64,000 nt of DNA from Polytrichum commune (lineage: Eukaryota > Streptophyta > Polytrichopsida > Polytrichales > Polytrichaceae). Both the position numbers and the translations under genes were made by a program. Location: NCBI GenBank assembly GCA_950295325.1, contig OX485807.1:1862501-1926500 (forward strand), given 5' to 3'. The notes below the pieces were generated by a model. The model saw only the letters and a program-made list of their open reading frames with translations, was not told the DNA's origin and ran no database searches. Shown piece by piece: positions 475 to 18,463 of the stretch. How positions within the stretch are numbered: the first letter of the stretch is position 1; the number at the start of each line of letters is the position of its first letter.

Positions 475-1857
475 GATTCTTCCCTGACCTTCTTCACCAG
501 CTGCTGATCATAAGCTCTGAAATATTTCCCACAACATAAGCTAATTCAGAGTATATATACTGACGTCGAAGAGTTTCTTCAACTTAGCAGATCAAGAAGA
601 CTCTAAGCTAGAATTTTTTTTTGTAAAGAATGAAATCCTCCACAAAGAAATAGACTCTGTCCAGTAGAACCACAACTATATAGGGCATCCAACATCGTCA
701 ACTCGAGCAACACCAGATCAACCAACTGTTGTTGTCCAGAAACAACACTGACAACACAACATTATGGAACGCCAAAATTACCACCTTCAGGAGAGAATTG
801 AGAGTGTTGTGGAGAGATCAATGGGAGTAGGGAGTTTATAAGGAGGAGCACCTGATTTTGTTGTTTATTTTATAGGTCACCTAGCTAAGGGAGCTTGAAG
901 TCAATTCCTTGGTGTCAAGTCAGCAGTTTCTTTGTGCAAAGTTTCACATTGTCCAAAGATCTTCGGGAAGCTACAGAACTGATGACGATGACTTCGATGG
1001 TCCAGGTGGCCTTCCGTGGTGCTATAAATGTTTTTAAAATTTAGCAGTATTAAAAAGTGCGATAAAAAAATCAACTGTACGTATGTAAACCTAAGTATTA
1101 GATGTATATACTGCCAGAAATTGGGAGCATTCTGACCACATTTGCTATGTGAGATTGCTATGTCCGAGCCCTCGAACTGTGCTTGAAAGTTTCACAGAGC
1201 ATGTTTAACACTAAAGTGGCACGAAAGGCATTAGGCCATGGCTCATGAATGACCATGATTCCTGTTAAGACAGGATGAATGTCATCCATTCACTCTCCGG
1301 TTCCATCCATGGCTTAGTAAGCATAGGAAGTAAAAGGATGTTAACTCTATTTACACTATATCTTAACTTGAGTTAACCAACTATATTTCATCACTATATA
1401 ACCATAATGGAATAGAGCTCCGGCTCATTCTTTTTGATGCTCATAATGCTTGTCTCTCAACAATTCCTTACGTTTTGGATGAGAGCATAGAGAAGTTTAT
1501 GGACTATAACCCAAAGTCTTTCGGAGGTCACAAGCCCTTAGTGTGAACCCAAAGTGGATCATGAAAAAGATCTCATAATACTTTAACTAGATTTGAGAAT
1601 GCATCATGGAGGAGAAACGAAAGAAAGTGTTTAATTGTAGCTTTGTTTATGTATTGGTGTTTGTATATATATGTTGATACATCCCCAGGATCAGGCACCA
1701 TGATTGCAATAGATCCCCCACTACCAGAACAATATACCTTATCAAAACAACAGGTGGAGCCCACCTCATAAGTAAGATAGAAAATTTCCTCTTAAAAGCC
1801 ACACCACTTGAAAGAGAATGGCATAAGTTATCCACTACACCCCCCCCCCCTCAGAAA
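475..1857. other. Gene-poor stretch between GST exon and LINE
   Basis: I see no credible coding exon here. The short minus-strand reading frames near 1573-1835 lack recognisable motifs. The stretch ends in a run of about a dozen C (near 1842-1852) immediately before homology to the plus-strand LINE begins. Confidence 0.5.
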
Positions 1858-3990
1858 TTGTCTTCCCGAGAGTTAAAATATATACACAAATTACTTATGG
1901 AAAACATATATGACATAAAACAACTCACCCTTCCAAACGGCACACACTTAATGTCATACATCGAATACTCAAAATACTATAAAAAACCCACCCACCCGAT
2001 AAACACAAGCTTTGAAAATAATAGAAAAATTATTTTGTTACCCATGTTGTAATGAAGAATGCCTAGAAACATGCCAAGAACATTACCCACCACGTACACT
2101 AAAAAGAGCATACGTCATAAGGGAACATAATATAACAAATAACGAAACCCGTATACACCCACTAACCCCACCACACCCAACACACCCGACCACTCCAGTA
2201 CACATAAAAAACAACCCAATAAAATACCCTATACAGTCAATAATAGACCACTACATAAAATCAACTACAGATAAATACAAAAATATAAAAAAACCAACAC
2301 ACATACCTATGCCAATGGATATTATCCAATGGAACGATATACACCAAAAACCTCCCACAAAGAGAATTATTCCCCTACAATCTCCCAAGAGTCATACAAC
2401 ATAACACAAACTTAATACTCACATACTACACCAAAATACAGCATAAAAAATATGAAAATATCATAAAAGAAAATGACATGTTTGCACAAAACAAAGATCC
2501 CAAACACATTTCCCCTCCCCTGAACACCCCACTCGTGAAAATCTCAATACAAGAATGCAACCCTGAAAAAAACATTAACACTAACACAAACAAAATACAA
2601 ATACAAAATGACTCCGCCTATATCTATGATGAAACAGGCAAACACATTATCACCATTCCATACAATAGGATGACTTGGTTATGGAACCAATACAACTGCA
2701 CACTACATCAACCACATGACTTAATACCCCCTACTCAACCATTTGAAATCGAAATAGCGTGGCTTTACCAAAGGTACAAACACAGAATACCGAAAAATGA
2801 CCCACTTAAAAACGCACATCATTCCCTGCCCAAAACACTATTAGATTATATCACGACATCCTTTGAAATCACACATTCTTATTTCTCATCACCAGTCACA
2901 TGCTCAACCCATCTAACCAAATTCTTTTCACCATTTCCTAGAGATAAAATCTTTGGATCCATCGGTAACGCATTCTCACATAAGTGGCAAGGAATAGGAT
3001 ACGCCCACCCACACAATTTAGGCCCCTTCCCAGACACACATGTAATCACGCAAATACCAGCAGACACCACCAAATATGAAGAGCATACAAGACCACAAGA
3101 ATCCAATGAAACACGCATAGAACCACTCACCATAAGAATCCTATGCGTCCATCACCAAAATAATAGTATCGGTACTACAGAACAAATGAACACAATAAGA
3201 AATATATGCAACAACCTGAACATAACCCGTATAACCACCCAAATTGCTCCCCCTACCCCACAAAATCTAGAAGTCAACAAATGTAAAACATGGAACACCC
3301 TCACCTACCCCACTCCAAACACGCAACTACACAATACAATTCCACAAATCCCCAACTATGAAAAAGAAACACCACTCAAATTCCCCCCCAAGTATTGCTT
3401 CTACACAGATGGATCCTTTAACCCCCCAAAAAAATGGGAGACATTTGGCGGAGAGAAGAAGCTGGATATGGTATATATAACCAAGAAAAAAATATCAAAC
3501 TCGCACTACGACTACCAGGCCTACAAAACATATTTCGAGCAAAACTAATGGCCATCCACCACACCCTCACAATAATAAAAAACGACTTCCCAAATGAACC
3601 AGCACATATTTTCACAGACTGTCTTAACGGCCTATATGTAATCAAAAACCAAATCAAACACCCCACACTACACAATAATCACCCCGATAAAACAATATTA
3701 GAAGAAATAGTGAACTTTCTTACACAAAGAACCCAACCCACAACATTATACAAAGTAAGAGCACATGCAAACATTAATGGTAACGAAGAAGCCGACGCAC
3801 TTGCCAAAGAAGGGACATCAAAAGAACACTACAACGCCTCTCAACCACACGAATTTGCCCACTCAACGCCATACTACTACCAAAGAGACACATGGCCATC
3901 AATGGAAACAACCCCGGACAAAGGGCCCATCAGATTCCTAGAAAAACACCTAGTGACGTACAACAAGAACATAAATTTAGAATTAATCCC
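1858..3990 (+). pseudogene. Outer LINE copy, upstream half: post-RT region, Cys cluster and RNase H (broken)
   Basis: This is the 5'-truncated first half of a non-LTR retrotransposon ORF2. It is homologous, at clearly divergent protein level, to the minus-strand copy at about 7400-4950. Reading needs at least three frames (about 1858-2052, 2012-2404, 2478-3440, 3434-3990). Visible landmarks in order are a Cys cluster (LFCYPCCNEECLETC, near 2030-2075) followed by HYPPRTLK, a long linker with WLYQRYKHRIPKNDPLK, and an RNase H domain. The RNase H domain has YTDGS (near 3400), FTDCLNGL (near 3610) and the His/Asp motif RAHANINGNEEADALAKEG (near 3760). The usual catalytic Glu in the AELMA motif is Lys here (AKLMAI). 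The homology stops exactly at GAATTAATCCC (3980-3990) and resumes at 16812, so this is half of one interrupted element. The RT core and APE domain are absent, which suggests 5' truncation at insertion. Confidence 0.85.
3980..3990 (+). repeat. Left target-site duplication of the nested LINE insertion
   Basis: The 11 bases GAATTAATCCC occur here and again at 16812-16822. The plus-strand LINE coding sequence stops at the first copy and resumes at the second. Joining across a single copy restores the reading ...NLELIPILYPNIDEW..., which has the same number of residues as the corresponding stretch of the minus-strand copy. Variable-length duplications of this size are typical of LINE insertion by target-primed reverse transcription. 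Confidence 0.8.
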
Positions 3991-4008
3991 TAAGAAGAAG
4001 AAAAACTT

Positions 4009-4027
4009 CGGTCTCCGGAGGAGACCG
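4009..4027. other. Perfect 8-bp hairpin near the inner LINE's 3' end
   Basis: CGGTCTCC, a 3-base loop (GGA) and GGAGACCG form a perfect stem-loop about 20 bases from the junction. On the minus strand it lies just before the terminal TTTTTCTTCTTCTTA. LINE RTs of several clades recognise a 3' stem-loop plus short repeats on their RNA. A similar role here is inference. Confidence 0.5.
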
Positions 4028-4270
4028 ACGTGAATGAAGTGTCTGTTCGATCCTCCTCCAATCCGATGCCCACAGGACAAAGGTATGGAGGTAAAGATCT
4101 ACTCCTCCCTTTCGAGAGTAGACACTATAGTCACCAGTTACTAGTAATCAAGAACCAAAATGGTTAGTTTTTAGGGGGGATTGTTAGTATGGTTTGGGTC
4201 GCCAAGTCGCTAGTGCATTTGTTAGTGGATGGAGTAGAGTGGCTTAGTTACTAAAGTTTTATGGCTTTAT

Positions 4271-5050
4271 CTATGGGGGGTCTAGTGTTTGGGGCAGGGG
4301 TTGGTGATTTTTTATTCTTCTTTTGTGTAGGAGGATAGACATGGCATACTTAATAGCGATAGTATTGATGTTTTTAAAAGTATTTTTAATGATAGGCATA
4401 GGTATTTTGAATTTATTTTCGAGTGATTTCATTGAAGGAATGTGTGTAGTGGCTCTAGCGCCTGCGGTGATTATAATAAGGGGATCAACTTTCCATCCTC
4501 TAGCAACGATACTATCAATTAATGGTTTATATTTGTTATTTTTTGCTTCAAGTGTTTCTGGAGAGAATCTATCATTACAGTATGTGAATTCGATGAATTG
4601 TATGGTGATGTTGGGGTCCATGTCTGTGGGGGGGTCATGTTGGTACGGTAATCCTCTAACACAAAGGATGTCAGGTCTAAATCTGGAGTTACAATGGCAT
4701 CTTTGTGTACCGCATGTGCAAGGGAGTAGCCAATTGGGAACGGTGTTTTCCTGGGATGTATTATTGAAGGTGCCAGTGTTCATGAGAATATAACATCGAG
4801 ATTTTTCAGATGAGATTAGTAATTTCCTAATTTCCCATACAGCTTTATTGTGTCTTTTGACGTGAAGTGAGTGTATATGTTGTTGTTTACACGTAAGTAG
4901 TACATGTAACCACGTGTCCGGTTCGTATGAGTTGCAAATGGGGCATGTAATAGAGGGATATGATGTCTACCGAAGAACAATTGTTTTTTAGCATTGCCCA
5001 TATAGGTTCCTGTTCGGAATTTGATGAGGCATGATTTTTGTTTATCTGTG
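4271..5050 (-). pseudogene. Inner LINE ORF2 C-terminus: CCHC finger and restriction-like endonuclease domain
   Basis: The open frame at 4783-4271 encodes the C-terminal 170 residues. It has a Cys-rich stretch (LPCTCGTQRCHC), then RPDILCV, a spacer and IQFIEFTYCNDR, then KYKPLI and GWKVDPLIIITAGARA. The PD...E-x-T arrangement followed by a KY-x-PL helix is the layout of the PD-(D/E)XK restriction-like endonuclease of R2, CRE and Dualen LINEs. Just upstream (4800-5000), in shifted frames, is the CCHC finger that is intact in the outer copy. The domain ends at a stop at 4271. The assignment to REL is from motif layout, not a search. Confidence 0.65.
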
Positions 5051-6953
5051 ATTTCCGGGTTTTCCCATAATTCGTTAGAAAGTTCTTTGTCTATATCTGC
5101 ATTTCCTGTCCATTTATAAGTGTTGGGGGTTTGTGTGGCCATGTTTTCCAAGTTGTTTTCCCTATCGTATTTAATAATTTGTTTTTCTAGGAATCTAACG
5201 GGGCCTTTATCAGGAACGTCCGTCATTGAGGCCCAAACGTCCTTTTGGTAGTAGTATGGGGTGGCATGGGCATGTTCATATGGGTGAATGGCAATTCTGT
5301 GCTCTAGTTCTAGCCCTTCTTTTGCCAATTTGTCTGCTTGTTCGTTGCCGTTAATGTTGATGTGTGCTCTGACTTTGTATAGTGTGATTGGTTGTGTTCG
5401 GTTTTGAAGTAGTTGTACCATGGTGGCGAGGGTGATTTGGTCAGGGTGGCTATTGTGAAGTGTGGGGTGTTTAATTTGTATATTGAGTAAGTATAATACA
5501 TTGAGACTGTCGGTAAATATGTATGCGGGTTCGTTTGGATATAGTGTATTAATGATTGTTAGTGTTTCATGTATGGCTATCATTTATGCTCATAATATGT
5601 TTTGGAGTCCATGTAGTCTTTTGGAGATGTTAAGGCCCTTCGGGCTATAGATTCCATATCCAACTCTTTCTCTTCTCCATACTTCAGGGTTAATTTCTTT
5701 GGGTTTCATAAAAGAACCGTCTGTATAGTAGCTGAATTGTGGATGGAATTTTAATGGTAAGTTGGTTTGGTAATTAGGGAATTGTGGAATAAGTATGTTA
5801 TTATTATTGGGTGTGTTTGGATAGTTAGATTTAGCCCATTTTTTGCTAGGATTAACGGCAGTATTTAAGGGGGTGGGTTGTGCAATTTGTGTGTGAATTT
5901 GTAATATTTGGAGGTTATTTGCTATGTTGGTGAGTTGATTCATTTGTTCGTAGGTACCGATGTAATTGTTTTGGTGGTGGATACAAAATATTTGTAGTGT
6001 TGATAATTCTTTTCTCGTGATATTGAGTTCAGGGGGAATTGTGGGTTCTTCGTATATGATGGTGTCTGCTGCAAAGTGGGCAATGATGTGTGTGTCTAAG
6101 AATGGGCCAGTGTATGGGTTAAAGTTATGGTACCAATCCATATCTTTTGAGATAAGTATAGTGATTGTATTTGGGTCGTTTTTGGCCGCAATGCGGGCCC
6201 AATGGATGGTTTGTTGTAAGTCTGTTGCGTTATGGGGGTGGGCGTAACCAATTCCCTTTCATTTTTGGTCAAATGTTTTTCCTAGGGATCCAAATATTCT
6301 ATCCCTAGAGAATGGTGAGTGGAATTGGGTGAATTGTGTGGAACAAATAACTGGGGATGAGAAGTATGAATGGTTGATATTAAATGTTGTTATTAGGAAA
6401 TCTAGTATTGGAGTTGGTATAGTATATTGGGCACGTTTAAGTGGGTCATTTTTAGGAATACGGTATTTATACCTTTGATATAGCCACACGATTTCAGTTT
6501 CAAATGATTGGGTAGGTGATTCTAGACTATGTGGGGTATCTTTAGCTTGATGGTATTGTTTCCATAGCCATAGTAGTCTAGTTTTTGGGATGGTAATGAG
6601 GTGCCGGCCGTTGTCTTCATATATGTGAGCGACGTCTAATTGTGTTTGGATAGTGTTAGTATTTGTTTCGATGTTATTCTCTGGGTTGCATTCATTAATG
6701 GAGATATGTGCTAATGGAATTATTGTGGCAGGGATAACGTATCTAGTATCTCTTAGTTGTTCCGTGGAGAAGTATGCGTTGACGATATTTGTGAAGTGTT
6801 TGTGTTGCCTTTTCGTATAATATTGGGTAAGTAGTTCGGTGTTGTGACAACTAGTATAGGCATCACAATAGGGAAATAATTCTCTTTGGGTGCGTCATTT
6901 GTTGTATCTGGTATTATTTGTTGTAGTCCATTGGCATAGGTATGATGTGTCAT
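4816..6953 (-). pseudogene. Inner LINE ORF2: linker and RNase H domain (broken)
   Basis: Four overlapping minus-strand frames (6953-6753, 6489-6259, 6141-5590, 5583-4816) together align with the outer copy's 2280-3990. RNase H motifs are YYTDGSF (near 5730), IFTDSLNVLYLL (near 5510) and the catalytic His/Asp motif RAHININGNEQADKLAKEG (near 5330). At the start of the second motif the frame carries two stops close together (near 5580-5592): TGA, where the outer copy has CGA, and TAA, where the outer copy has AAA and active RNases H have Glu. The first looks like CpG decay. The domain sits between RT and REL. It would remove RNA from the RNA:DNA hybrid during insertion. Confidence 0.85.
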
Positions 6954-8898
6954 TTCTTGTAATCCCGTTAGAATCTATGAGTTGTCGTTGTTTGTGATCT
7001 AGTATTGTGTGTATAGGAAATTGACGGGGGTTGTTAAGCATATTGTTGGGAGGCGGGGATAGGTGGGGGATAGGGGGGTTTGGGGGGTGTATAGGAGGGG
7101 TTGGGTGTTGGGGGAGGATGGTATGATTTATTATTGTGTAATTATTCTTTAAGGTTCGTGGGGGGTAATGGTGTAGGCATGGTAGGTGGCATTCTTGGTG
7201 GCAGGAAGGATGGCAAAATAGTTGATTCGCAATGTTTAATGCACTCTTGATGAGTTTTGTAGGATTGGAGTGGTATATTTTAAAGTCGTCTGGGTTCATT
7301 AAGGTTGTGCCATTGGGCATGATTATTTGTTCTAATTTTATTATATTGTGCAATAGAAGTTTTTGTAATAATTTAAGTGAAGTGTTGGGGTTTAGGCCCT
7401 GTAAGTTTTGAGCTTCTTTCAACCATGCGGTTTCAAGTGTGAATGGGTTTAATAAGAAGCTATTTATTGTACTTTTTAGGTGGACTCCGGCTTCATGTTT
7501 AAGTAGGAATAGCGTTCTAGTGATAGGTGATGTAACACAATGATGGTATTTAATGCGGGTTATTTCTTTGGAACCTCCAAATTTTGCAAGTATAAATTGT
7601 GTTAAGCCATGATAGATTTTACCGAGTCTACCTTTGTCATTGAGGGCATTTTGTAGTTGTTCTCCGATACAACGCAAGTAGGCATTTTGTAGAGAGAATG
7701 CTTCAATTCCGAATAGATCGTGCGGGAGTTGTGTAGCGATATTAGATGTGTTTTTTGGTAATCCGCATATTATTTTATGAAGTGCTATAATCTTCTTATC
7801 GAGTTTTTTGATAGCCGGAATAGAGTATGGTATTGCGTAAAAGCTGTAGGCTATACCAACACGTATGATTGTATCTGCCATGTTGATTTTCTGTTTCATG
7901 TTGGCTGGGCATGCTACAAGGGCTTGACATTGTTTAATAACTTTAGCTGTAGTGGTATTAATTTGTGTTTTCCATTTAAGAGATGGTGCGAGGTTGATTC
8001 CCAGATAGGTGTATGGTTCGTGTTGATCTAAGACTGGTAATGGTTGGTTTCCATAGTTTATATTAGTGGATTGAATCAGGGCTTTGAATGTTATGGGGTT
8101 CATTTTAGATTTGTTAGGGCATCCGGTCACTTCACACTTGGGTATTCCAAGGTCCATTTCCGCCCATTCGTAGAATTTGTCTAATTTGTTTAGTTGTGTT
8201 TGTAATGATTTTAATTTGTTGGCAATCGCTGTTAGATCATCGGCATATGCTGCGGATGTGATTTTAATTTTGGAAGTTCCAAAGGTATATCCATTGTCAC
8301 CTTGTTGTAACCATCTAAAGAGGGGTTCTAAGAATATTAAAAATAAGTAAGGGCTGAGAATGTCTCCTTGCATTCTACCTCTTTGAATGAGGATGGGTAG
8401 GGTTTTGCCGAAGTATTCTCCAAAATATATAGTAGTGCATTGTGTGTATATATTTCCAATGAGGTTTATTGCATCTATTGGATATCCAAGGTCTTTCATT
8501 ATGGCTAAGAGTCTTGCATGATCAATGGAACCGAAAGCGTTTTTGAAATCAATGTAGAGGATATATATATCTTGGTTCGTAAATCTTGCGTCTTCTAATG
8601 CTGCAATGAGGAGTTGAAGTTGTCTGGATGTTCCTCGTTCTGCTCTGAATCATTCTTGGCTATCATGCAGTATTTGGTGTCTTTCACCATAAGTTGAGAG
8701 AATAGAGGTTAATGTGCTTGTGTATAGTTTGTATATGGTGCTAGCTAGTGCAATAGGTCTATGGTTAGTAAGTAGTGATGGATCACCTTTCTTGTATAGT
8801 AAAACCATTAAACTAGTTTTCCAGGATGCGGGGATTTGTTTTTGTTTGTAGCAGTGTTTAAAGAATAGAAAGAGTAGCTTGTGGAAACGTAGAGGCAT
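6895..8898 (-). pseudogene. Inner LINE ORF2: reverse transcriptase with thumb and Cys cluster
   Basis: From the minus strand, RT palm motifs appear in the standard order. They are NHRPIALASTIYKL (8740), YILYIDFKNAFGSIDHARLL (8540), RGRMQGDILSPYL (8370), the catalytic SAAYADDL (8240) and YTYLGINL (7990). The 534-codon frame 8499-6895 runs from mid-palm through the thumb to a Cys/His cluster (CHPSCHQECHLPCLHHYPP, near 7180). The frame 8898-8650 joins it after one in-frame stop (TGA after HDSQE, near 8650). A one-base deletion near 8925 separates it from the upstream frame; restoring it would give the usual KAPGPDKIP start of RT. The domain copies the element's RNA into DNA at the target. Confidence 0.9.
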
Positions 8899-8903
8899 AT
8901 TCT

Positions 8904-9440
8904 TTAGGATTGAATTAGGAATTTTGTCTGGTCCTGGGCTTTATTATTTCCTAGGTTTTTGAGGCAGAAGTCGTATGTTTCTTGGTCAAAGTATGTGTGT
9001 AGGGGGGTTTGGGGTTCTCCCCGTTGTTCAATCGTGAATCCTTCTAAGTCATGCCATGGATATTGCCTAACACCACATGTGCAATGTGGTGGGTGAATGT
9101 TATGATAGTAGCATATGGATGTTGTTGGCCGATTACTGATGGATTGTTGAATGTATATTTCTTTTGCAATATCTTCAGGATTGGTTAATATGTTATTTTG
9201 TCTATCCGTGATGGAGTCGAGGGGTGAGGTTTCGGAGTGCTTAAAGACTTTCCTATTTATCTTTTTGGGACTTTTTTCATACATTTGGCGGTATTTTGAT
9301 ACGGCTTTTAGAATACAGTGTTTGATGTATTTTGTGGTGATTTTTCTGGCTTCTTTATTGGAGGTTTTTGCGATAGCGGCTATGGTGTCAATCCATTCAT
9401 TTGGGAGAGTGATTGTTGTAGGTGAATGTGGAATTTGCAC
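8904..9440 (-). pseudogene. Inner LINE ORF2: linker between APE endonuclease and RT
   Basis: This 178-codon minus-strand frame begins after an in-frame TGA at the end of the APE frame (near 9483) and ends at the RT frameshift. Continuous reading through the TGA gives the same frame, so this is a nonsense mutation rather than a gene boundary. It includes a basic region (KINRKVFKHS) and a Cys/His stretch (CYYHNIHPPHCTCG, near 9100). No enzyme motif is recognised in it. It ends in GNNKA, the start of the RT N-terminal motif. Confidence 0.75.
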
Positions 9441-9482
9441 ATGTTGGTGGTTACGGATTTCATTTAAAATGGGATGAGTTTG

Positions 9483-10665
9483 TCAGTGTGGATTGTTTCT
9501 TGCAATATATATTGTTTTTCTAATAAGATGGTATGTGTCGAGGTGTCGTTTCCATTCTTTGGATAGTTTTCGTGGTAGGAAGTCACCTTGCTGAGCTGTT
9601 CTATTTGTAAGGGTTGGTATTGGGGCTGCTTTGCAGGTTTTTTCAATGGTAACTGAAATTTTTTCTACAATGTTGTCTAATGCTGTACAAGCTTCTTGCC
9701 ATTGGTCAGGGGTGAGGTTGTTGTGGTTTTCTAGTATGATGGTTAGTTCGTTTACTTGCATGGTATTTGCTTCAAAAAATTCTATATTAAATTTTTCTAA
9801 GTTTTCCGGCGGGATTGGATTTAGTATTCTAGTTGGTGTAATATTTGCGGGGGATGGTGGTCTAGCTATAAGTAAGTTTTGGGGTATGTGTAAGGTGACT
9901 GGATAGTGGTATGAATTTAGATTTATGTTTGTGATTGTTGTAGAGGCGAATCTGTTGTTATCTGGTGAGTGGATATAGAAACCGTCTATAAGGCTGGTTG
10001 ACGTGTAATTATAACCTCCTTGTCTTGAAATATTAGTGGTTGTTGGAATATATTCTAGATTTAGGGTTGTAGTGAAGTTTTTCCATTGGATGTCGTCCTC
10101 TTGTGGTGCTGTGTGATTATTGTTATTTTGTCTTCCGGTGAGTGCAATATCTTTATTAAAATCTCCACATAAAATGTTTGTGTGGTTTGGGTGCGCAATT
10201 ATTTGGTTGGTGATTGTGGTTTTGAGGTAGGGAATGAGGTGGGTGTCATCTACGTGTGTGGGCATATACATATGTATGATTAGCCATGGCAGGAGTGGAT
10301 GGTTGTGTATTTTTATTATTTGTAGATAAGGGGAGATATTTGCTGGTGTGGGTATCTTGGTAACATTTCCAGAAAATGCGTATTTGTTATGAATAAATGT
10401 GAGAAGACCACCTCTACCGGGGGTGTAAGGCATTCTTTGTTGTATGCATCTTGTGAGGACGTGTGTGTTGTTAAAAATAAGTTTGTATTCAGGGAATTGA
10501 TTTTGAATGTATTTAGTGGATTTAGTTGCTGTGAGTTTGGTTTCTTGGATATTTATAATCGCTATGTTGCTAAAGGAATGGTTTATTAAGCTTTGTAGGT
10601 TTGGTAAGGCTGTGTTAAGTGACGAGGCATTCCATGTTATTATATTTGTTTCGTGGTTAGAGTTT
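9483..10665 (-). pseudogene. Inner LINE ORF2: APE-type (exonuclease III-like) endonuclease
   Basis: The frame is open upstream of its first Met. Motifs in order are TWNASSLN (near 10645), NIQETKLT (near 10555; the catalytic Glu), PYTPGRGGLLTFIHNK (10425), HMYMPTHVDD, ILCGDFNKD (10165; catalytic Asp/Asn), SLIDGFYIHS (near 9985) and SYHYPVTLH (near 9910). The last motif is normally SDHxPV. The Asp is Tyr here, so this copy is probably catalytically dead. APE domains nick the target DNA in most LINE clades (L1, RTE, CR1, I). Having it in the same ORF as a REL-type domain is the notable point. A stop (TGA) ends the frame at 9483. Confidence 0.9.
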
Positions 10666-11047
10666 GTAATTGTTCTTGGGGCTGGTGTGGGGATGTTTGG
10701 AAGTGGAGGTGGGTGTGAGTATTCATCTATGTTTTCTAAGCCCCGGAGTGACTCGGTAATCAGTTTTACAGTGAGAAAGGTTAATTTCCTTTGGAGTGTG
10801 GTTAGTGTAGGTGGAGTCTTTTGGTTGTGGATAAATTTATATAACTCGGTATGTATAGAGTTTTTGGGGTGTATTATATCTTGGTTATTTTCAACAAATG
10901 TTGTGTATGGGTGTTGTGTTAGAATGTGTCGCTCGGGAGGGTTGTTAAGGTTGGCTAGTCTAATGATTAGTGTGTTGGTCCATATGTCGTTAAAGTGGTA
11001 AATGCGGGGTTGGGCTAATATGTTGTTACATGTGTCTATTGAGGGGT

Positions 11048-11356
11048 TTATCGAAATTCTAAAACATATAGTATATGAGTTGATTGGGAATGACTTTGTG
11101 TTAGGATGTATTGATGTAGGTGTGGATATATGATGGTTGTTTGGTGATGTAGTGGGTGATTCCGTTTTAGTATGGGAGCGAACGTATTTGCTATGTGTTG
11201 GTACTCTGGATGTAATTTTATTGTGTTTGGGATAAAATATGTTTTGGCTCTCTTTTTATGTGTAGCGGGGTGTGTGCGTAGGATATCAGGCATTGGTCCG
11301 GGGTTAGGTTCCATATCTCCGCATTGTAATAATGTTAATTTATTGATGAAGTAGTA
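11048..11356 (-). pseudogene. Inner LINE ORF2 N-terminus carrying a 2A motif
   Basis: The minus strand reads HGYYFINKLTLLQC, then GDMEPNPGP, then MPDILRTHPATHKKRAKTYF. A TAA lies about nine codons upstream of the 2A motif. The frame ends at 11048 and is one frame off the APE frame that follows, so at least one indel lies between about 11048 and 10665. The segment is the natural N-terminus of the polyprotein that continues into the APE endonuclease. No domain other than the 2A motif is recognised. Confidence 0.6.
11294..11320 (-). other. 2A (StopGo ribosome-skipping) motif GDMEPNPGP
   Basis: The peptide GDMEPNPGP matches the 2A consensus D-x-E-x-N-P-G-P, and it is preceded by the hydrophobic LTLLQC typical of such sequences. 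2A peptides make the ribosome release the chain at the final Gly and go on at Pro. They are known at the N-termini of ORF2 in several APE-type LINEs (for example trypanosome L1Tc and animal CR1-like elements). Here it precedes the APE domain. Activity is inference. Confidence 0.8.
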
Positions 11357-11517
11357 TCCGTGGAGTTAAAGTAATTTTGGTTTTTTCTTATGTATTTTTT
11401 GATATTTTTTGAGTATGAACTTAGTTGTAGTAAATAGGTTAGGTAAGGCGGGTATTATGTTTGCTAGTTGTTTAGTTGGAAAGTGTGTACTTGTGTTGCT
11501 TTTAGGTTCGTGATTTG

Positions 11518-11964
11518 TTATTGTGTTGGGTGTCCAGATGTTTGTGAATTGGTATTTGTTTTTAGTTTTGTGGCGAGGCCGGGAGGCCGGGAGGCCGAGG
11601 CCGTTTTATTATTTGTAAGTGTGAGCAATCCGCCTTTCCCAGGTGTATAAGGCACTTGTTGGTGGTATTTTGTAGGTTTATTACTGGTTGTGTTGTTTGT
11701 TTGGTTATTACTTTTGACGTGTTTGGTAAGTGATTTGGTTTTGGTTTTTGTTTTAGTTGGAGTATTATTGAATATTGTGTTTATGTGTATTTTTTGTATG
11801 GTATTTATTATTATTGTGTAATATTTTATTATAGCGTTGTTGTTGATGAAGTAGTGTTCGTGGTATTGTTTAACTTTTGAGTCGGTCATTTTGTGATTTT
11901 GTATAAGTGTGTATTTGCTTGTGAAAAATAAGTTAGGTAATATTGGATGGTAGTTGTATGTCAC
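11518..11964 (-). pseudogene. Rearranged second copy of the ORF2 N-terminal region
   Basis: This 148-codon minus-strand frame contains KQYHEHYFINNN (near 11850), resembling HGYYFINK at 11345. Only about 200 bases further on it has VPYTPGKGGLLTLTNNK (near 11640), resembling MPYTPGRGGLLTFIHNK of the APE domain at 10425. In the downstream copy these two landmarks are about 900 bases apart, so this one looks like a deletion derivative or local duplication. The middle is Lys/Thr/Asn-rich low complexity. It has no 2A motif that I can see. It is probably non-functional. Confidence 0.5.
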
Positions 11965-11984
11965 AGGGAGTTTTGTTGTTAGTT

Positions 11985-12400
11985 TTGGGTTTTGGGTTTG
12001 GTGTTGTTTTTTATATTGGTTTTGGTGATGGTTTTGGTGGAGGTTTGGGTGTTGGTGGTGGTTTTGATGCTGGTTTAGTTGTGGGTGTTGGTGGTTGTAT
12101 TGATATCTGGTTGGGTATTGGTTTAGATATTGGTATTGGGTTTGGTATTTAGTTTGGTATATGTTTTGGTGTTGGTACTTGGTTTTGTATTTGATTTGGA
12201 GTAGGTATTTGATTTGGTATTGGTATTTGGTTTGGTATTTGATTTGGTATTCGGTTTGGTTTTGGTGTTTGATTTGGTATTTTATTTGGTGTTGGTATTT
12301 GAAAAGATGTAGGTATTTGGTTTGGTATTTGATTTGTTGTTTGGTTGGATTTTGGTATTTGATTGGGTATTCGGTTTGGTATATAGTTGTTTTGGTATAT
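11985..12400. repeat. Low-complexity TTTGGTAT-type tandem repeat
   Basis: On the plus strand the stretch is built of variants of TTTGGTATTGG and TTTGGTATTTGA, with GTTTTGGTG at the left end. On the minus strand one frame reads Asn-Thr-Lys and Pro-Asn-Thr repeats (such as SNTKPNTKSNTK), interrupted by stops. It lies exactly between ORF1 and the 2A/ORF2 region. It could have been a low-complexity N-terminal tail of ORF2, or an expanded microsatellite in the intercistronic spacer. Confidence 0.75.
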
Positions 12401-12629
12401 AGTTTTAAGGGATTTTGTTCAAGAGTTGAGATAAATAGTTTAATAAGGTTAGGGGTAAGTATTTTATGTGTTGTGATATGTATTGGTTTTATATATTTAT
12501 GTGTATGATTAGTTTTGTTTCTGTTTTTGGATTTTTTGATAAGTGTTTCTTGTTTGAAGGGGGTATTTATAAATACATTTTTATTTTGTTTTTGTTGGTA
12601 TCTTTTTGGTATTGAAGTGGTGAGCTTAT

Positions 12630-14303
12630 TTAGTTTATCGCCATTAAATCTTCCTTGTCGCTTGATGAATCTTCTTTGTCGAGCATTTCCGAGGAGTCCA
12701 AGGCTGCCATGGTTTTGGTGAGGGCTTGTCGGAGTGTGGCCATCTCTTTTTTGAGTGCCCTAGCTGCCTTTTCTGCCGCGTGTGTTGCAAAGTTTTTCGC
12801 TTGACTTGTTAAACGAGTCTCCATGGTTTGCATCTCATCTCTCACTATAGCGGTCCCTTCGGCCACAACTTCCTCAACCATGTGGTGTATGTCTTTTTTT
12901 CTTAGTCCATTGGATGGGGCATTTTCCATGGCTTCTACGGTGTTTGCTAACGCGGTGTTCATATCGTTAAAGCCTAGTCGTGTAAGCTCCTCTCCCGAAG
13001 GTTTAGATATTCCATCTAAGCTTTTTGGGTGAGGAGCAAATTCGACATATTTATTACATATTTTATGATTCTTTTTTACAAAAAATTTATAGACTGCCAC
13101 ACTTAAGCATTGCACATTGCATACACCGGTGAGTTTGCCTTTATCATCCGTTTTAAAGAAGATGTTTAAGATGTTTTTCTCACCCATGCATGCCCTTATT
13201 TCGGTTTCAAGGACCTCTTTAGATTTTAATCTATTTAATTTTTTTGCAATGAGGATGAGTGCATTCTTTTTAGCTAAGTCGTCGCCCGAGGGTTTTCCTA
13301 TCGTAACATCAATGCTTTCATGCCCAAATGTTATTTTGTTCTTTCTTATATTTTCTACTTGTTCCGGGCTAGTTGCAACGATCCAAGCAAAGTTGTGACT
13401 TTCCCCTTTTCGCACATGGGTAATTTCAAAATTGTGCCCTCTATGAAATCCTTCATTTATCACTTCATTAAATACTTTGTACCATGTCTCATCTTTGATG
13501 TTGTCAGTGGTAATTTTGACTGATAACATCTCGCTTGAGGCAATGGTGTCGTAAGTCTTACAAATTTTACCTCTGTGCAATTTATTATCCAGGAGCCGGA
13601 TAATAAATGGCCTAAGTCCTTGAAGCATGGGAATACCGTCTTCTTGTATATTTTTTAAATATATTTTAGCGTGTCCCGACCATTGCTTGCCTCCATGTGT
13701 GCACATTATAGCGATTGGGTCACTTATATTATCACCTAGAGGGATTCTCATTTCATTCATCCTCTTGGTGATGCTTATAAGTGCTTCTTCTTTGGGAATA
13801 ATCATCTCATTTAATTCAAAGAATAAAGCTACGTGGTAATCCATTGCAAAGCCATCACAAGTTTCTATCTCTGAAGGAATTTGTGTGTGATGATAGTTTT
13901 GTTTACCTAGGTTGTTCATACTAGGCCATAATTCTTGAGGTACATACAGGTATGAGACAACACTATCCTGGCATTCTAGTGCTTCTCCTTCATACATGCC
14001 CATTTTGACTAGCTCACTAACACTCTTATGGTTTTCTTTTGCTAGTTTGTTGCTTGCATTCAAAACATTCATTGCTTTGAATCCAAGCCACAACGGAAGG
14101 AATTTTCCTTGTGTGCTAGACCGATTTTTAGTTTTATCAACAATAGTTAGGCATGCATTACTTGATGTCCTCTTTTTTGTTTGAGTTACTTCCATATCTT
14201 TTACCCCATCCAATGACTTTTCAAGACTACGAGCATATGCCATTCTGCAAAAGTAAAGTATGTTGTTATTGTATGTTTTCGATACATTTTCTTTGCTCCT
14301 CAA
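12630..14303 (-). CDS. Intact LINE ORF1-like protein, 557 codons, RRM-like core with C-terminal coiled coil
   Basis: This is the only long intact frame of the inner LINE. The first ATG is at 14303. A likelier start is Met21 (14243, MAYARSLEKSL), because a good splice acceptor (TTTTGCAG) ends one base before its exon, at 14245. Residues about 330-450 alternate hydrophobic strands and helices in an RRM-like way (FAWIVATSPEQVENI; later NILNIFFKTDDKGKLTG). Residues about 490-540 form an Ala/Glu/Lys heptad-like coiled coil (AAEKAARALKKEMATLRQAL), followed by an acidic Ser/Asp/Glu tail. RRM plus coiled coil is a common LINE ORF1 design for binding the element RNA. I do not recognise a specific family. 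Its integrity beside a decayed ORF2 is odd: the insertion may be recent, or this protein may be under selection. A host-gene origin is not excluded. Confidence 0.65.
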   Translation of the reverse strand: MRSKENVSKTYNNNILYFCRMAYARSLEKSLDGVKDMEVTQTKKRTSSNACLTIVDKTKNRSSTQGKFLPLWLGFKAMNVLNASNKLAKENHKSVSELVKMGMYEGEALECQDSVVSYLYVPQELWPSMNNLGKQNYHHTQIPSEIETCDGFAMDYHVALFFELNEMIIPKEEALISITKRMNEMRIPLGDNISDPIAIMCTHGGKQWSGHAKIYLKNIQEDGIPMLQGLRPFIIRLLDNKLHRGKICKTYDTIASSEMLSVKITTDNIKDETWYKVFNEVINEGFHRGHNFEITHVRKGESHNFAWIVATSPEQVENIRKNKITFGHESIDVTIGKPSGDDLAKKNALILIAKKLNRLKSKEVLETEIRACMGEKNILNIFFKTDDKGKLTGVCNVQCLSVAVYKFFVKKNHKICNKYVEFAPHPKSLDGISKPSGEELTRLGFNDMNTALANTVEAMENAPSNGLRKKDIHHMVEEVVAEGTAIVRDEMQTMETRLTSQAKNFATHAAEKAARALKKEMATLRQALTKTMAALDSSEMLDKEDSSSDKEDLMAIN

Positions 14304-14799
14304 CCCATTCCCTTTCCACTTATAAATAAGTGGGCTTTGTAGGGGGGTATTAGGAAGATGTTATTATTTATGTGTGTGTGTTGCTTACTATCATTTACAA
14401 AATACCATGCAATTCTGGTAGATGTTCCTTTAAATGTAGCTATAGCAGTAAAACATGCTTGTGCATAACATTTCCATAGAGTGTGAGAGAGGACGCTGTG
14501 AGAGTTGTTCCAATATAGTGTGGTAATGAGCAACCACATGAGAACAAGGCATGATGCGGTTGCAACCTTCATTTTTAATCTAACCTAACAATAACTAACA
14601 ATTCTATGTGCCTATTACTAGGTGCAACTACTACTACTTCTAATAAATTACAAGTGTTGTGTGCTTAACTAGTCTTATGTGTGTGCTTCTAAGTGCCTAT
14701 GTGTGTGTCAACTATGAAATCAAGAGAGTTTGTTTGTTAATTAAGTGTGTGCTCTAAGTGTCTAATTGTGTGCTTAAGAGGAGGGTTGAGAAGTCTTAC
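14245..14799 (-). other. Possible intron in the ORF1 leader
   Basis: On the minus strand CCAG|GTAAG (donor, GT from 14799) and CTTTTGCAG (acceptor, ending 14245) bracket about 555 bases with no conserved reading. Splicing would place ATG 14243 one base into the next exon. Introns in LINE leaders are unusual, so this is tentative. Confidence 0.35.
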
Positions 14800-14939
14800 C
14801 TGGTAGCGAAGGAGGTGGCAGGCAGCTCCGCAACTCTACTTAACTTCGCAGCTTCGCAGCTCCTCAGCTCTAATCTGAAATCCCTTAACAGTCACAGATT
14901 CGTTAGTTTATCGGAAGCAGGGATTAGGCTAATCTGTAA

Positions 14940-16085
14940 CCTAAGGTAAGAGCTAATCCAACAGGGGTCACTTCACGAATATGGACACCTTTATTGTTGA
15001 TAACAGAAGTTCTGTTAACAAGGATTAAAGTTGATTAAGTCTCTAGTTGCTGGATTGTCTCTTCTAGATTCGTTAGATTGCTGAAATCGTAGATTTAGCT
15101 AATATTCAAGCAGCTAGTGAGTACTGATCGAAGTTAAGGTTTGAACTAAGGTCACCAAACAATTCTGGAAGCCGATATCAAGCAAGTTTGTAAGAAATTT
15201 TTTGAGCTAAGGTTGTAAACTAATCTAGGATTGGTTTTGGGCACACGTATTGTTGGTAACAGGGATGATACTAATATTTCAGAGACTTTAGAGGTTAGAG
15301 TGGATTTGATCTAATCACGGGTTGATATGAGGTCTCCTTATCGATACTATCTTTTGAAGCGATTTCTTCCTTTTATGTAGCTGTGTAGTTATTTCGGCCA
15401 ACAACAATCATGTGGTTTCTGTCAACTAATAGGAAGAGCAAGGTTTTATTAAGTTTTAGTCCTAAGTCCTGGTAAGAATTGATTCGGCAGGAGTCACCTC
15501 ACAAATCTGAGTACGTTTTATCAAGAAGAGAAGTTATGCTAACAAATCTCTATTTGCTGGATTATTTGTACTAGGTTCGTTAAATTGTCGAGGTTTTGAG
15601 CTAATCTTCAATCACTAGTTAGATCTGATCGAAACAGAGATTAGCTAAAGTCACCTAACAACTCTGGTAGCAAGAAATTAAGCTAGTCTGTATGAAATTT
15701 TTGAGCTAAGGTTGTGATCTAATCTGGGTTTTTTGTGAGGAACAGGGGTTAAGCTAAACTCCCGATTCTTTGAAGCATGAACTAAGGTAAGGTCTGTTCT
15801 ATCAGAGGGTTGCTTTTGGGCATATCGGACTCATATATGCGTATTGTTGATAACAAGGATTAAGCTAAACTTTCAGAGATTTTTGAGTTATTGTGAATCT
15901 AATCTGAGTGGGGGTTGATCTGAGGTCACCTAAGCAATACTATCTTTTGAAGCGATTTCTTCCTTTTCAGAAGCTTTTTTAGTTTCTGTAGCTATCTATG
16001 TACTCCGGCCAACAACAATCATGCGGTTCCTGTCAGCTAATCAAAGAGAGCAAGGTTTTGCTAAGTTTTAATCCTTTGAGCATAA
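14940..16085. repeat. Two imperfect tandem leader repeats of about 0.53-0.6 kb
   Basis: The block 14940-15475 is repeated as about 15476-16085, with insertions. Shared landmarks are TTGCTGGATT (15048 and 15555), the GAGCTAAGGTTGT stretch (15200 and 15700), GCGATTTCTTCCTTTT (15359 and 15952) and CGGCCAACAACAATCATG (15394 and near 16006). The repeats lie upstream of ORF1 on the minus strand, in the position of the 5' monomers of mouse L1, which carry promoter activity. Regulatory function here is inference. Confidence 0.75.
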
Positions 16086-16229
16086 TGTTAGATCTAAGTC
16101 ATGATCTGGTATAGTATGACGTTTCCAATCTTTGAACTTTAGAGAGTAGGGTTAGATCTCATTTGGGCAGTGCTTTGTTGAGTTCCTTCGCTCGGTTCAC
16201 ACAACACACAGCTCCACAGTAGCTCGTTG

Positions 16230-16460
16230 TCTGCAGCTCTAACTTGCAGAGCCTTCGCCAATGTCTTGTTTATGCAGCAGCGCGGCTCTTGGTGCAATAA
16301 CAGCTCCTTCGTTTTAGATCTCAAGTTTGTTGATGTATCAGCACCACTCCTGTTGTAGTAGTTCCTCCTTGTAGCACATCCCAAGTTCGTGAGTGCAGCA
16401 ACACAGTTCCTAGTGTCAGAGCAGCTCCTCGTAGTAGATCTCAAGTCCTTCTCCGTGCAA
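16230..16460. repeat. Degenerate minisatellite, about 60-65 base unit
   Basis: Variants of TAGATCTCAAGT...CAGCAAC...AGCTCCT...GTAGTAG recur about four times. Examples are TAGATCTCAAGTTTG near 16315, CACATCCCAAGTTCG near 16375 and TAGATCTCAAGTCC near 16435. A minus-strand frame (16444-16139) crosses it but has no recognisable motif and is probably a by-product of the repeats. Confidence 0.55.
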
Positions 16461-16603
16461 CTCTATGGTGTATCTCTCCGGTGTCGCTCTTGGGCAGCAA
16501 CAGATCCGTAGTAGCTCCCACCGTTGTCGACAACACTGTCTCAACTATGTCTCTGTCTTAACCAAAATCACAAGAAGATGAGTTGTGGGGATGGGTTGGG
16601 AGG

Positions 16604-16611
16604 TTTTTATA
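16604..16611 (-). promoter_or_regulatory. Candidate TATA box for the inner element
   Basis: The minus strand reads GAGTATAAAAACC. Transcription would start near 16575-16580 and run through the minisatellite and tandem repeats to ORF1. It lies about 200 bases inside the insertion boundary, which is unusual for a LINE promoter because a LINE RNA normally starts at the element's own first base. Confidence 0.4.
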
Positions 16612-16811
16612 CTCTTTGTGTGGCTACGTTAGCTGGGTGACCCTTCGGGCATCGAAAGGGTGGGTGGCTGGGGGAGGGAAGCTTGGGGAGCAACAGACTG
16701 TTGCCGCTTCGACCCTTTCCTCCCTCCTCCCTACCTCCGGCAACCTTCTGACCAAATCTCACCGCCCCGAATACCAGTCAAAGGTAAGCGGTTGTTCTTC
16801 TAAACATGCCC

Positions 16812-16822
16812 GAATTAATCCC
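16812..16822 (+). repeat. Right target-site duplication of the nested LINE insertion
   Basis: This GAATTAATCCC is identical to 3980-3990. The outer LINE reading resumes here directly. Confidence 0.8.
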
Positions 16823-17693
16823 CATATTATACCCCAACATAGATGAATGGATAGCCAACGACAAAATAGACAATGAGTTATCCAATAAATTTTGGACAAA
16901 CAAAAACATAACTGACTCCCAAAAAACATGCCTTCTAAAACTGCGACACGGTCAATACATGGGAAATGCCAGGAAACAACTATTCTTTGGCAGAGAAGCT
17001 TTTCCATCAATTACATGCCCCATATGTGACTCAACAGACCCGGATACATGGCTACATGTACTTCTAAAATGCAAACAACACCACATACATGCCCTCCGCA
17101 CCAAAAGACACAATAAAGCAGTATGGGAATTAAGAAAACTTTTGGTGTCATCAAAAAAATCAAGATGTTTTATTCTCATGAATGCAGGAACATTCAATAA
17201 TGACCCCCCAAAAAACACGGTCCCCTCATGGTTATTACCGTGTGAATGTGGTCAACAAAGGTGCCATTGTAACGCCAGATTCAAACCAGACCTTCTATGT
17301 GTGAAAGGACTACCATACCAGTCCCCGCCCCCACTAGAACCCAACGACAACCTAACAATACAATTCATTGAATTTACATACTGCAACGATAGAATACCGG
17401 ATGAAACTATAAACCGAAAAATAGAAAAATATAAACCTTTAATAGACAATATTGCCAACAAAGGCTGGAAGATAGACCCACTAATTGTCATCACTGCAGG
17501 CGCTAGGGCTGCCACACACATCCCCTCTATGGACAACATTGAAACAACATTTAAAACCCCTAAGCAGAGCATCAAAAACACATTTGAGGCAATCAATGTC
17601 ATTGCCATACAATACGCTATGTCCATAATTCTGCACAAAAGAAGGATAGAAAATAATGAGCCAATACCACTAGACACACAACTAGATAGATAA
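16812..17693 (+). CDS. Outer LINE copy, downstream half: intact CCHC finger and REL endonuclease frame
   Basis: This is one open frame of about 293 codons to a TAG/TAA-rich end, without stops. It begins at the right copy of the 11-bp duplication and continues the frame of the outer copy's first half. Domains are an all-helical linker (IDNELSNKFWTNKNITDSQK), then the CCHC finger CPICDSTDPDTWLHVLLKC (C-x2-C-x9-H-x4-C, near 17010-17070). A Cys-rich turn follows (LPCECGQQRCHC, 17240), then KPDLLCV and IQFIEFTYCNDR (17285-17390), KYKPLI, and GWKIDPLIVITAGARAATH (17465-17520). The finger just before PD-x22-E-x-T is the REL arrangement of R2/CRE/Dualen elements, where it nicks or holds the target. 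Its intactness while the first half carries frameshifts is noteworthy. Confidence 0.75.
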   Translation, partial: ELIPILYPNIDEWIANDKIDNELSNKFWTNKNITDSQKTCLLKLRHGQYMGNARKQLFFGREAFPSITCPICDSTDPDTWLHVLLKCKQHHIHALRTKRHNKAVWELRKLLVSSKKSRCFILMNAGTFNNDPPKNTVPSWLLPCECGQQRCHCNARFKPDLLCVKGLPYQSPPPLEPNDNLTIQFIEFTYCNDRIPDETINRKIEKYKPLIDNIANKGWKIDPLIVITAGARAATHIPSMDNIETTFKTPKQSIKNTFEAINVIAIQYAMSIILHKRRIENNEPIPLDTQLDR

Positions 17694-17831
17694 AAAATAA
17701 AAAATAAAATACTTACCCACTTTGAGAATAGACACTCAAATAACCATAAACATGTAATCAATAGACCAATAACCATTAGTGAATAGCAAGCGCCTTGGTT
17801 GAAGTATAAGTGTGGTCAATTCTGTAAATGG

Positions 17832-18463
17832 TCGCCAAGTCATGGTCCCACGGTTGGTTGGGTAAGATGGATTGTGTTACACTAATACAGTCCGGGTTCG
17901 ATTCACGGTGAACCCGTCTGAGCGCTTAATGTGATACACTATGACTTGGTACTGCAAGTGAGGCCCTTCCCACACGAGAGGCACCGGAAGTTTCACAACT
18001 TCCTCCAACGTGGCACCTTGCCCAAGAAAAGTCTCCTTTTCCTCATTTTTCTCCTTATATTGTGGGACTTCCGGGCACTTGTCCCCGGTAGTTGCGAACT
18101 ACATTTATTATGCCATGTCACTCTACTTTATTGCCAAGTAGATCCCGAAGCAAGATCCAAAGCAAAATCCGAAGCTAAAAAGTCATTGTTGCCACTCCCC
18201 ATACTTCCTCTCATGTGGCAACCACTTGCTCATTTGAACCAATGCTATTCATCCAACTCATTGCCGTTCCTCCCGTGTGGTTTGGGCCTGAGTTAAAACA
18301 CGGGCAGGAAAATTGTACCCACCAACCAGGTGCTACCCGTCTCCTGAGCTACCGGTGACATCTTAAATAACTAGTGGACTTACCACTACCCCTCTTTTAC
18401 TCTACTCACACTAACTGGTTGTTTCTATCCATCTCGACATACAAACTAAAAGAAAGTACTCCC

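Follow-up and report, generated by a model that had tools for sequence, protein, structure and literature searches.

The analysed stretch, a 64,000-nucleotide window of Polytrichum commune contig OX485807.1 (positions 1,862,501 to 1,926,500), contains two nested, decayed copies (A and B) of what is very probably an autonomous, recently active, Dualen/RandI-like long interspersed nuclear element (LINE) of a moss. Intact relatives in the same genome have second open reading frames (ORF2) of 2919, 2924, and 2372 aa that share one domain order: a 2A-like NPGP site, an apurinic/apyrimidinic endonuclease (APE), a reverse transcriptase (RT, with YADD), a chromodomain, a PCIF1-like domain, an RNase H, a CCHC finger, and a PD-(D/E)XK nuclease of the restriction-like endonuclease (RLE) kind. 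The description of this element as Dualen-like with two endonucleases, put forward in the original prediction, is well supported. That prediction had named neither the 2A-like site nor the two domains that lie between the RT and the RNase H, the chromodomain and the PCIF1-like domain.

The interval 3991-17693 had been read as one ORF2. All of the motifs named for it were present, far above chance, but the interval is not a single element, a reading that was rejected once the 11-bp target-site duplication (TSD) GAATTAATCCC of copy A revealed the nesting. Because this TSD bounds copy A at 16811, the interval comprises copy A plus a 3' piece of copy B. Copy A is a full-length, decayed LINE of 12,821 bp on the minus strand, with its 5' end at 16811 and its 3' end, a hairpin followed by (CTT)n, at 3991; it is inserted into copy B, an older plus-strand LINE of the same kind that it splits into two parts (~1681-3990 and 16812-17693). 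Stops and frame changes break both copies, and copy B also has a deletion in its PCIF1-like domain. The RLEs of the two copies are ~70% identical, in agreement with the proposal of two diverged subfamilies in the window. Pfam searches recovered the predicted RT (RVT_1) and RNase H in copy A (Table 1), while the predicted APE matched Exo_endo_phos below the cut-off in copy A (E 3e-4) and over it in intact genomic copies (E 1.3e-5).

A search of the 408-Mb genome (seven chromosome-sized contigs) revealed intact relatives elsewhere, with PF12237, the PCIF1 family model, marking at least 150 places over its cut-off, many of them with very long frames. E1 (contig 1) is 13.5 kb long and has a 14-bp TSD, an ORF1 of 1310 aa, and an ORF2 of 2919 aa (both lengths being stop-to-stop counts). 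The ORF2 frame of E2 (contig 4) is 2924 aa long, and no TSD of E2 was found in the retrieved stretch; E3 (contig 5) is a close kin of E2 with one break. E4 (contig 5, 33405001-33416500) represents a second family, in which an ORF2 of 2372 aa, ~42% identical to that of family 1, has the same domain order with a shorter leader, the 2A-like motif GDIHPNPGP, a PCIF1 motif that reads FPTD, and a tail of (TTTTC)n; beside the two subfamilies of the window, it is a third, more distant family. Long-frame copies on several chromosomes are 96-99% identical and therefore point to recent activity. Copies are scattered over all chromosomes, and rough candidate counts of 5373 and 6810 for two RLE queries (overlapping sets) and of 1856 for the PCIF1-like domain (overlapping the RLE counts) suggest thousands of 5'-truncated copies. 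Insertion into microsatellites only was considered and rejected, as E1-E3 share an ATCT tail while their flanks differ and are non-repeat.

Identity between copies differed by reading frame. The ORF1 of copy A is 36% identical to that of E1 and 23% to that of E2, whereas its ORF2 is ~79% identical to that of E2 and 61% to that of E1; between E2 and family 2, the ORF1s are 55% and the ORF2s 43% identical. Judged by these sequence comparisons, ORF1 modules seem to have been swapped between families. A solved relative of ORF1 was sought and rejected (best E 0.084). The attribution to a land-plant host was borne out by the LEAFY genes of the genome, which are of moss type: the closest solved relative of their proteins is Physcomitrella LFY, and they carry D in 'LDYLFDLYEQ' where Arabidopsis has H, a residue that we take to point to moss.

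Pfam analysis of the intact copies gave RVT_1 at E 3.6e-27 and RNase_H (PF00075) at E 1.4e-14 (3.8e-15 in E4). Both models were over their cut-offs in E1, E2, and E4, PCIF1_WW was over its cut-off in E1 and E2, and the APE was recovered by Exo_endo_phos in E1 and by Exo_endo_phos_2 in E4. The APE motifs WN, QETK, GDFN, and SDH are kept in the intact copies, copy A reading SYH in place of SDH, and the catalytic residues of APE, RT, RNase H, and RLE are kept in E1, E2, and E4. The GDIETNPGP of E1 fits the 2A consensus (D/G/C/N)(V/I)ExNPGP, and other copies have the variants GDIKPNPGP, GDMEPNPGP, and GDIHPNPGP. In E1, the leader that precedes this site contains no stops in 580 codons, compared with 27 and 42 in the other two frames and ~26 expected, so that openness through base composition was rejected; the E2 leader is likewise stop-free, and each of 2000 mononucleotide shuffles contained stops. 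A block of ~200 aa between the 2A-like site and the APE is also conserved.

The C-terminal PD...E-x-T...KY block, originally proposed to be restriction endonuclease-like, had no sequence match among solved structures in the PDB. An AlphaFold model based on 15 copies (mean pLDDT 58, core 72-87) matched R2 endonuclease domains best: the top seven rows in VIA were R2 endonuclease regions (Z 7.2-7.9), with other PD-(D/E)XK nucleases ranking next, and R2Tg and R2Pm were the top two in Foldseek (E 3.4e-4 and 1e-3; best probability 1.00). This match was made on the domain of copy B, which is homologous to that of copy A. The D, E, and KY residues are invariant across copies and the C-C-H-C of the finger is conserved. 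The original expectation of a structural match to restriction-like endonucleases is thereby upheld.

The PCIF1-like domain was identified by PF12237 over the cut-off and by a phmmer match to the PCIF1 structure 6irv (E 2.7e-4). In the AlphaFold model of the chromodomain/PCIF1 segment (mean pLDDT 54; chromodomain ~71-83, PCIF1-like part lower), the predicted elements E7-17, E23-34, E40-46, and H56-86 give the chromodomain a three-stranded sheet and a C-terminal helix. VIA placed PCIF1 (6irv) in the first row (Z 6.7) and matched the chromodomain part to the chromodomains of CDY1, CDYL, and CHD4 at a root-mean-square deviation of 1.8-2.7 Å (Z ~6), while Foldseek alone gave no significant match for this model. 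The two Z values are weak by themselves, but they count because independent sequence evidence agrees, namely the Pfam match to PCIF1 and, for the chromodomain of E4, matches to PF00385 (E 0.04) and CDYL2 (E 0.03).

The FxSP...Y.S...D..FGS.G of PCIF1 is conserved in the PCIF1-like domain, and the ANPPF site reads AHP[PHQ]N/T in family 1 and AFPTD in E4. Since NPPF is lost, ordinary N6-adenine methylation is doubtful. Median ratios of nonsynonymous to synonymous substitution (dN/dS) among diverged copies were 0.21 for the chromodomain, 0.17 for the PCIF1-like domain, and 0.12 for the RLE, rough values given a dS near 1 and many dead copies; all three domains are nevertheless constrained by purifying selection. 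As to the role of the PCIF1-like domain, activity as a cap m6Am methyltransferase on the transcript of the element itself would agree with the Pfam assignment, the fold match, and the dN/dS of 0.17, but the replacement of NPPF by HPPN, HPHN, HPQN, or HPHT in family 1 and by FPTD in family 2 makes this role rather improbable.

To place the RT, we constructed an unrooted tree from sequences in PDB alignments (three of R2 and that of human L1), six moss L1 copies, and the new elements. Human L1 and the six moss L1 copies formed one side of a branch with 100/98 support, and the new elements lay on the other side with R2, which upholds the original expectation that the RT falls outside L1. Among PDB entries, the RT matched R2 (E 2.6e-32) better than L1 (E 6e-17). 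The presence of RNase H and a predicted RLE argues against RTE. Scans of viral contigs with the PCIF1-like, RLE, and RT alignments and of bacterial and archaeal genome contigs with the RT returned no relatives.

Three other origins of the element were weighed against a Dualen/RandI-like LINE. It could be a plant L1 that gained an RNase H and whose C-terminal block is no nuclease but an ordinary zinc-knuckle tail; the APE-RT-RNase H order is also seen in plant L1 with RNase H, and moss L1 elements are present in this genome. However, the RT is excluded from the human and moss L1 clade, the C-terminal D, E, and KY are invariant with the R2 RLE as the best fold, and the C-terminal domain is under purifying selection, so that we find this barely credible; the RT tree together with the fold search has already refuted it. 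The R2-like RLE and the preference of the RT for R2 over L1 would also agree with an RLE-only, R2-like element chimerised with a foreign APE through an assembly or recombination artefact, with no dual-endonuclease lineage behind it. This is very unlikely, given that APE, RT, and RLE occupy a single open frame in several intact copies that are independent of one another, across two families with ORF2s only ~42% identical and with conserved APE catalytic motifs. A separate dual-endonuclease lineage, in which another LINE gained an RLE or an APE and so converged with algal Dualen, would account for the 2A-like site, chromodomain, and PCIF1-like domain, which are not reported for Dualen, and for the lack of a detected cysteine protease. 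We regard convergence as unlikely, because descent more simply explains the shared APE, RT, RNase H, and RLE, a combination that to our knowledge has been reported so far only for Dualen/RandI.

Several points weigh against the Dualen/RandI-like assignment or parts of it. A cysteine protease is said to belong to Dualen as originally described, and no Pfam protease match was found in the intact ORF2s (E<=5 or E<=1), with ~200 aa behind the 2A-like site still unassigned. The RT tree, besides being unrooted, was built without Dualen, CRE, NeSL, and RTE; it therefore rejects L1 and leaves Dualen unproven, and membership in Dualen/RandI is drawn from architecture only. None of the 2A motifs in E2, E4, and copy A matches the strict consensus, and the PCIF1_WW score of E4 (28.7) is below the family cut-off of 31.1. 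Confidence in both AlphaFold models is modest (mean pLDDT 58 for the RLE and 54 for the PCIF1 segment), and VIA Z values below 8 can reflect an arrangement common to many folds, although other evidence concurs with the R2 and PCIF1 rows.

The coordinates of the features in the window and of the domains in E1 are summarized in Table 1. In copy A, the repeat between ORF1 and the 2A-like site (minus strand) is coding-like and rich in Lys, Tyr, and Gln, and the direct repeats of the 5' untranslated region (UTR; 15196-16041) lie ~500-600 bp apart and resemble the promoter monomers of some LINEs. A tRNA B-box-like sequence, GGTTCGATTC, occurs in the 3' UTR of E1 (antisense, ~570-580) and just past the 3' end of copy B (~17894, plus strand), possibly reflecting a tRNA-derived short interspersed nuclear element that shares the LINE 3' region; ARAGORN found no tRNA in the window. 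Beside E1 lies a fragment resembling a pogo/CENP-B-type DDE transposase (17366-17884 in joined E1 coordinates), judged by eye alone.

Table 1. Features of copies A and B in the window (nucleotide positions) and domains of the intact E1 ORF2 (amino acid positions)
Feature	Position	Strand	Evidence or remark
Copy A	3991..16811	-	Flanked by 11-bp TSDs; 3' end at 3991 with hairpin and (CTT)n
TSD GAATTAATCCC, left	3980..3990	+	Sequence
TSD GAATTAATCCC, right	16812..16822	+	Sequence
Copy A 3'-terminal RNA hairpin, then (TTC)n tail	4008..4030	-	Folds at -16 kcal/mol
Copy A CCHC finger and PD-(D/E)XK RLE, stops upstream	4292..4999	-	tblastn, 64-79% to intact copies
Copy A RNase H (YTDGS, FTDS, AHxxxxGNExAD)	5310..5740	-	Pfam PF00075, E 5.5e-7
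Copy A PCIF1-like methyltransferase-fold domain, GYAHPHN replacing ANPPF	5860..6513	-	Pfam PF12237, E 4.7e-10, over cut-off; best fold match PCIF1, made on intact relative
Copy A chromodomain-like segment	6769..7023	-	tblastn to E1; fold match made on E1
Copy A RT (YADD), frame broken	7876..9161	-	PF00078, E 4.9e-19
Copy A APE (TWNA, QETK, GDFNKD, LIDGF)	9876..10655	-	67% to intact copy; Pfam PF03372
Copy A 2A-like motif GDMEPNPGP	11294..11320	-	Sequence; aligned with GDIETNPGP of E1
Copy A low-complexity repeat between ORF1 and 2A-like site	11970..12380	-	TRF, 30-bp period
Copy A ORF1, 576 codons open	12630..14360	-	36% identical to ORF1 of E1
Copy A 5' UTR	14361..16811	-	Two diverged direct repeats (repeat search)
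Copy B 5' part, post-RT region to RNase H	1681..3990	+	tblastn, 42-60% to intact copy
Copy B chromodomain-like segment	from 2301	+	tblastn to intact copy
Copy B PCIF1-like domain with deletion	2733-3260	+	PF12237, E 7.9e-10
Copy B RNase H	~3390-3850	+	tblastn to intact copy
Copy B 3' part, CCHC and RLE, RLE frame open	16812..17693	+	70% to intact copy; AlphaFold model and fold searches
E1 ORF2 2A-like site GDIETNPGP	~577-586 aa		
E1 ORF2 APE	801-1060 aa		
E1 ORF2 RT	1418-1681 aa		YADD at 1597
E1 ORF2 chromodomain	~2005-2090 aa		
E1 ORF2 PCIF1-like domain	2171-2390 aa		
E1 ORF2 RNase H	2434-2577 aa		
E1 ORF2 CCHC and RLE	~2685-2915 aa		

The element encodes all of the enzymes needed for target-primed reverse transcription, and its copies carry at the 3' end a conserved hairpin with compensatory changes, after which come short tandem tails of (TATC)n, (TTC)n, or (TTTTC)n. 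An intact element with ORF1 and an ORF2 of 2400-2900 aa would move by this route. At the 2A-like NPGP, ORF2 would shed its low-complexity leader, which would then not have to fit the enzyme fold. One nuclease would nick the target, with RLE and APE either sharing both nicks or one of them being redundant; the RT would recognise the 3' hairpin of the element and prime there and on the short tandem tail, RNase H would clear the template RNA, and second-strand cleavage would yield the 11-14-bp duplications. The chromodomain may tether the complex to modified histones and guide insertion, and the PCIF1-like domain, because its NPPF motif is lost, may bind RNA or the RNA 5' end or cap as a reader instead of methylating it.

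More tentatively, this land-plant LINE lineage could have retained the two endonucleases of its ancestors and acquired a chromodomain that reads histones as well as a cap-methyltransferase domain put to a new use, thereby choosing heterochromatic targets and recognising or modifying its own capped RNA 5' end. Use of the PCIF1 fold in recognition of an element's own RNA cap, if true, has no counterpart described for any retrotransposon found in our literature search. The presence of both domains shows that LINEs are able to capture chromatin-reader and cap-enzyme modules. A high-copy, recently active dual-endonuclease LINE in a land plant would make the assignment of nuclease to strand testable within one element; Dualen has been cited as an intermediate in the LINE switch from restriction-like to APE endonuclease (PMC4640811). 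With a 2A-like site following its low-complexity leader, the element suggests that StopGo occurs in a natural gene of a plant, and no use of StopGo by plant viruses has been found (PMC12846837).

The literature search, with Repbase and most subscription papers outside its reach, returned no Dualen/RandI from moss and no PCIF1 domain in any LINE, and its titles and abstracts, plus PMC5348765, reported no chromodomain in a LINE; an unpublished or database-only moss RandI may exist. Dualen is a LINE group with APE and RLE, and RNase H is listed for Dualen/RandI (PMC4640811). The moss element shares APE, RLE, RT, and RNase H with Dualen/RandI of Chlamydomonas reinhardtii (a Repbase group) and differs in its moss host and in adding the 2A-like site, the chromodomain, and the PCIF1-like domain. 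With R2 it shares the RLE fold and the preceding CCHC finger, and its RT is most similar to R2 among PDB entries, but R2, whose insertion site is 28S rDNA, lacks APE and RNase H, whereas the moss element has both domains and is found genome-wide. Plant L1 with RNase H has the same APE, RT, RNase H, and ORF1 plus ORF2 layout; in contrast, the moss element has an RT outside the L1 clade, an RLE, a chromodomain, a PCIF1-like domain, a 2A-like site, and a tandem-repeat tail. Its PF12237 domain is homologous to that of the cap-specific m6Am methyltransferase PCIF1/CAPAM, differing in the replaced NPPF and in being embedded in a retrotransposon polyprotein. Non-LTR (long terminal repeat) retrotransposons bearing 2A sequences are known from trypanosomes and animals (PMC4981915) and share with E1 the D[V/I]ExNPGP motif upstream of the enzyme domains, whereas the moss case is a plant element that also carries an RLE. 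Chromodomains have likewise been captured by LTR retroelements such as chromoviruses and the oomycete Chronos (PMC5348765), but the chromodomain of the moss element resides in a LINE, between the RT and the RNase H.

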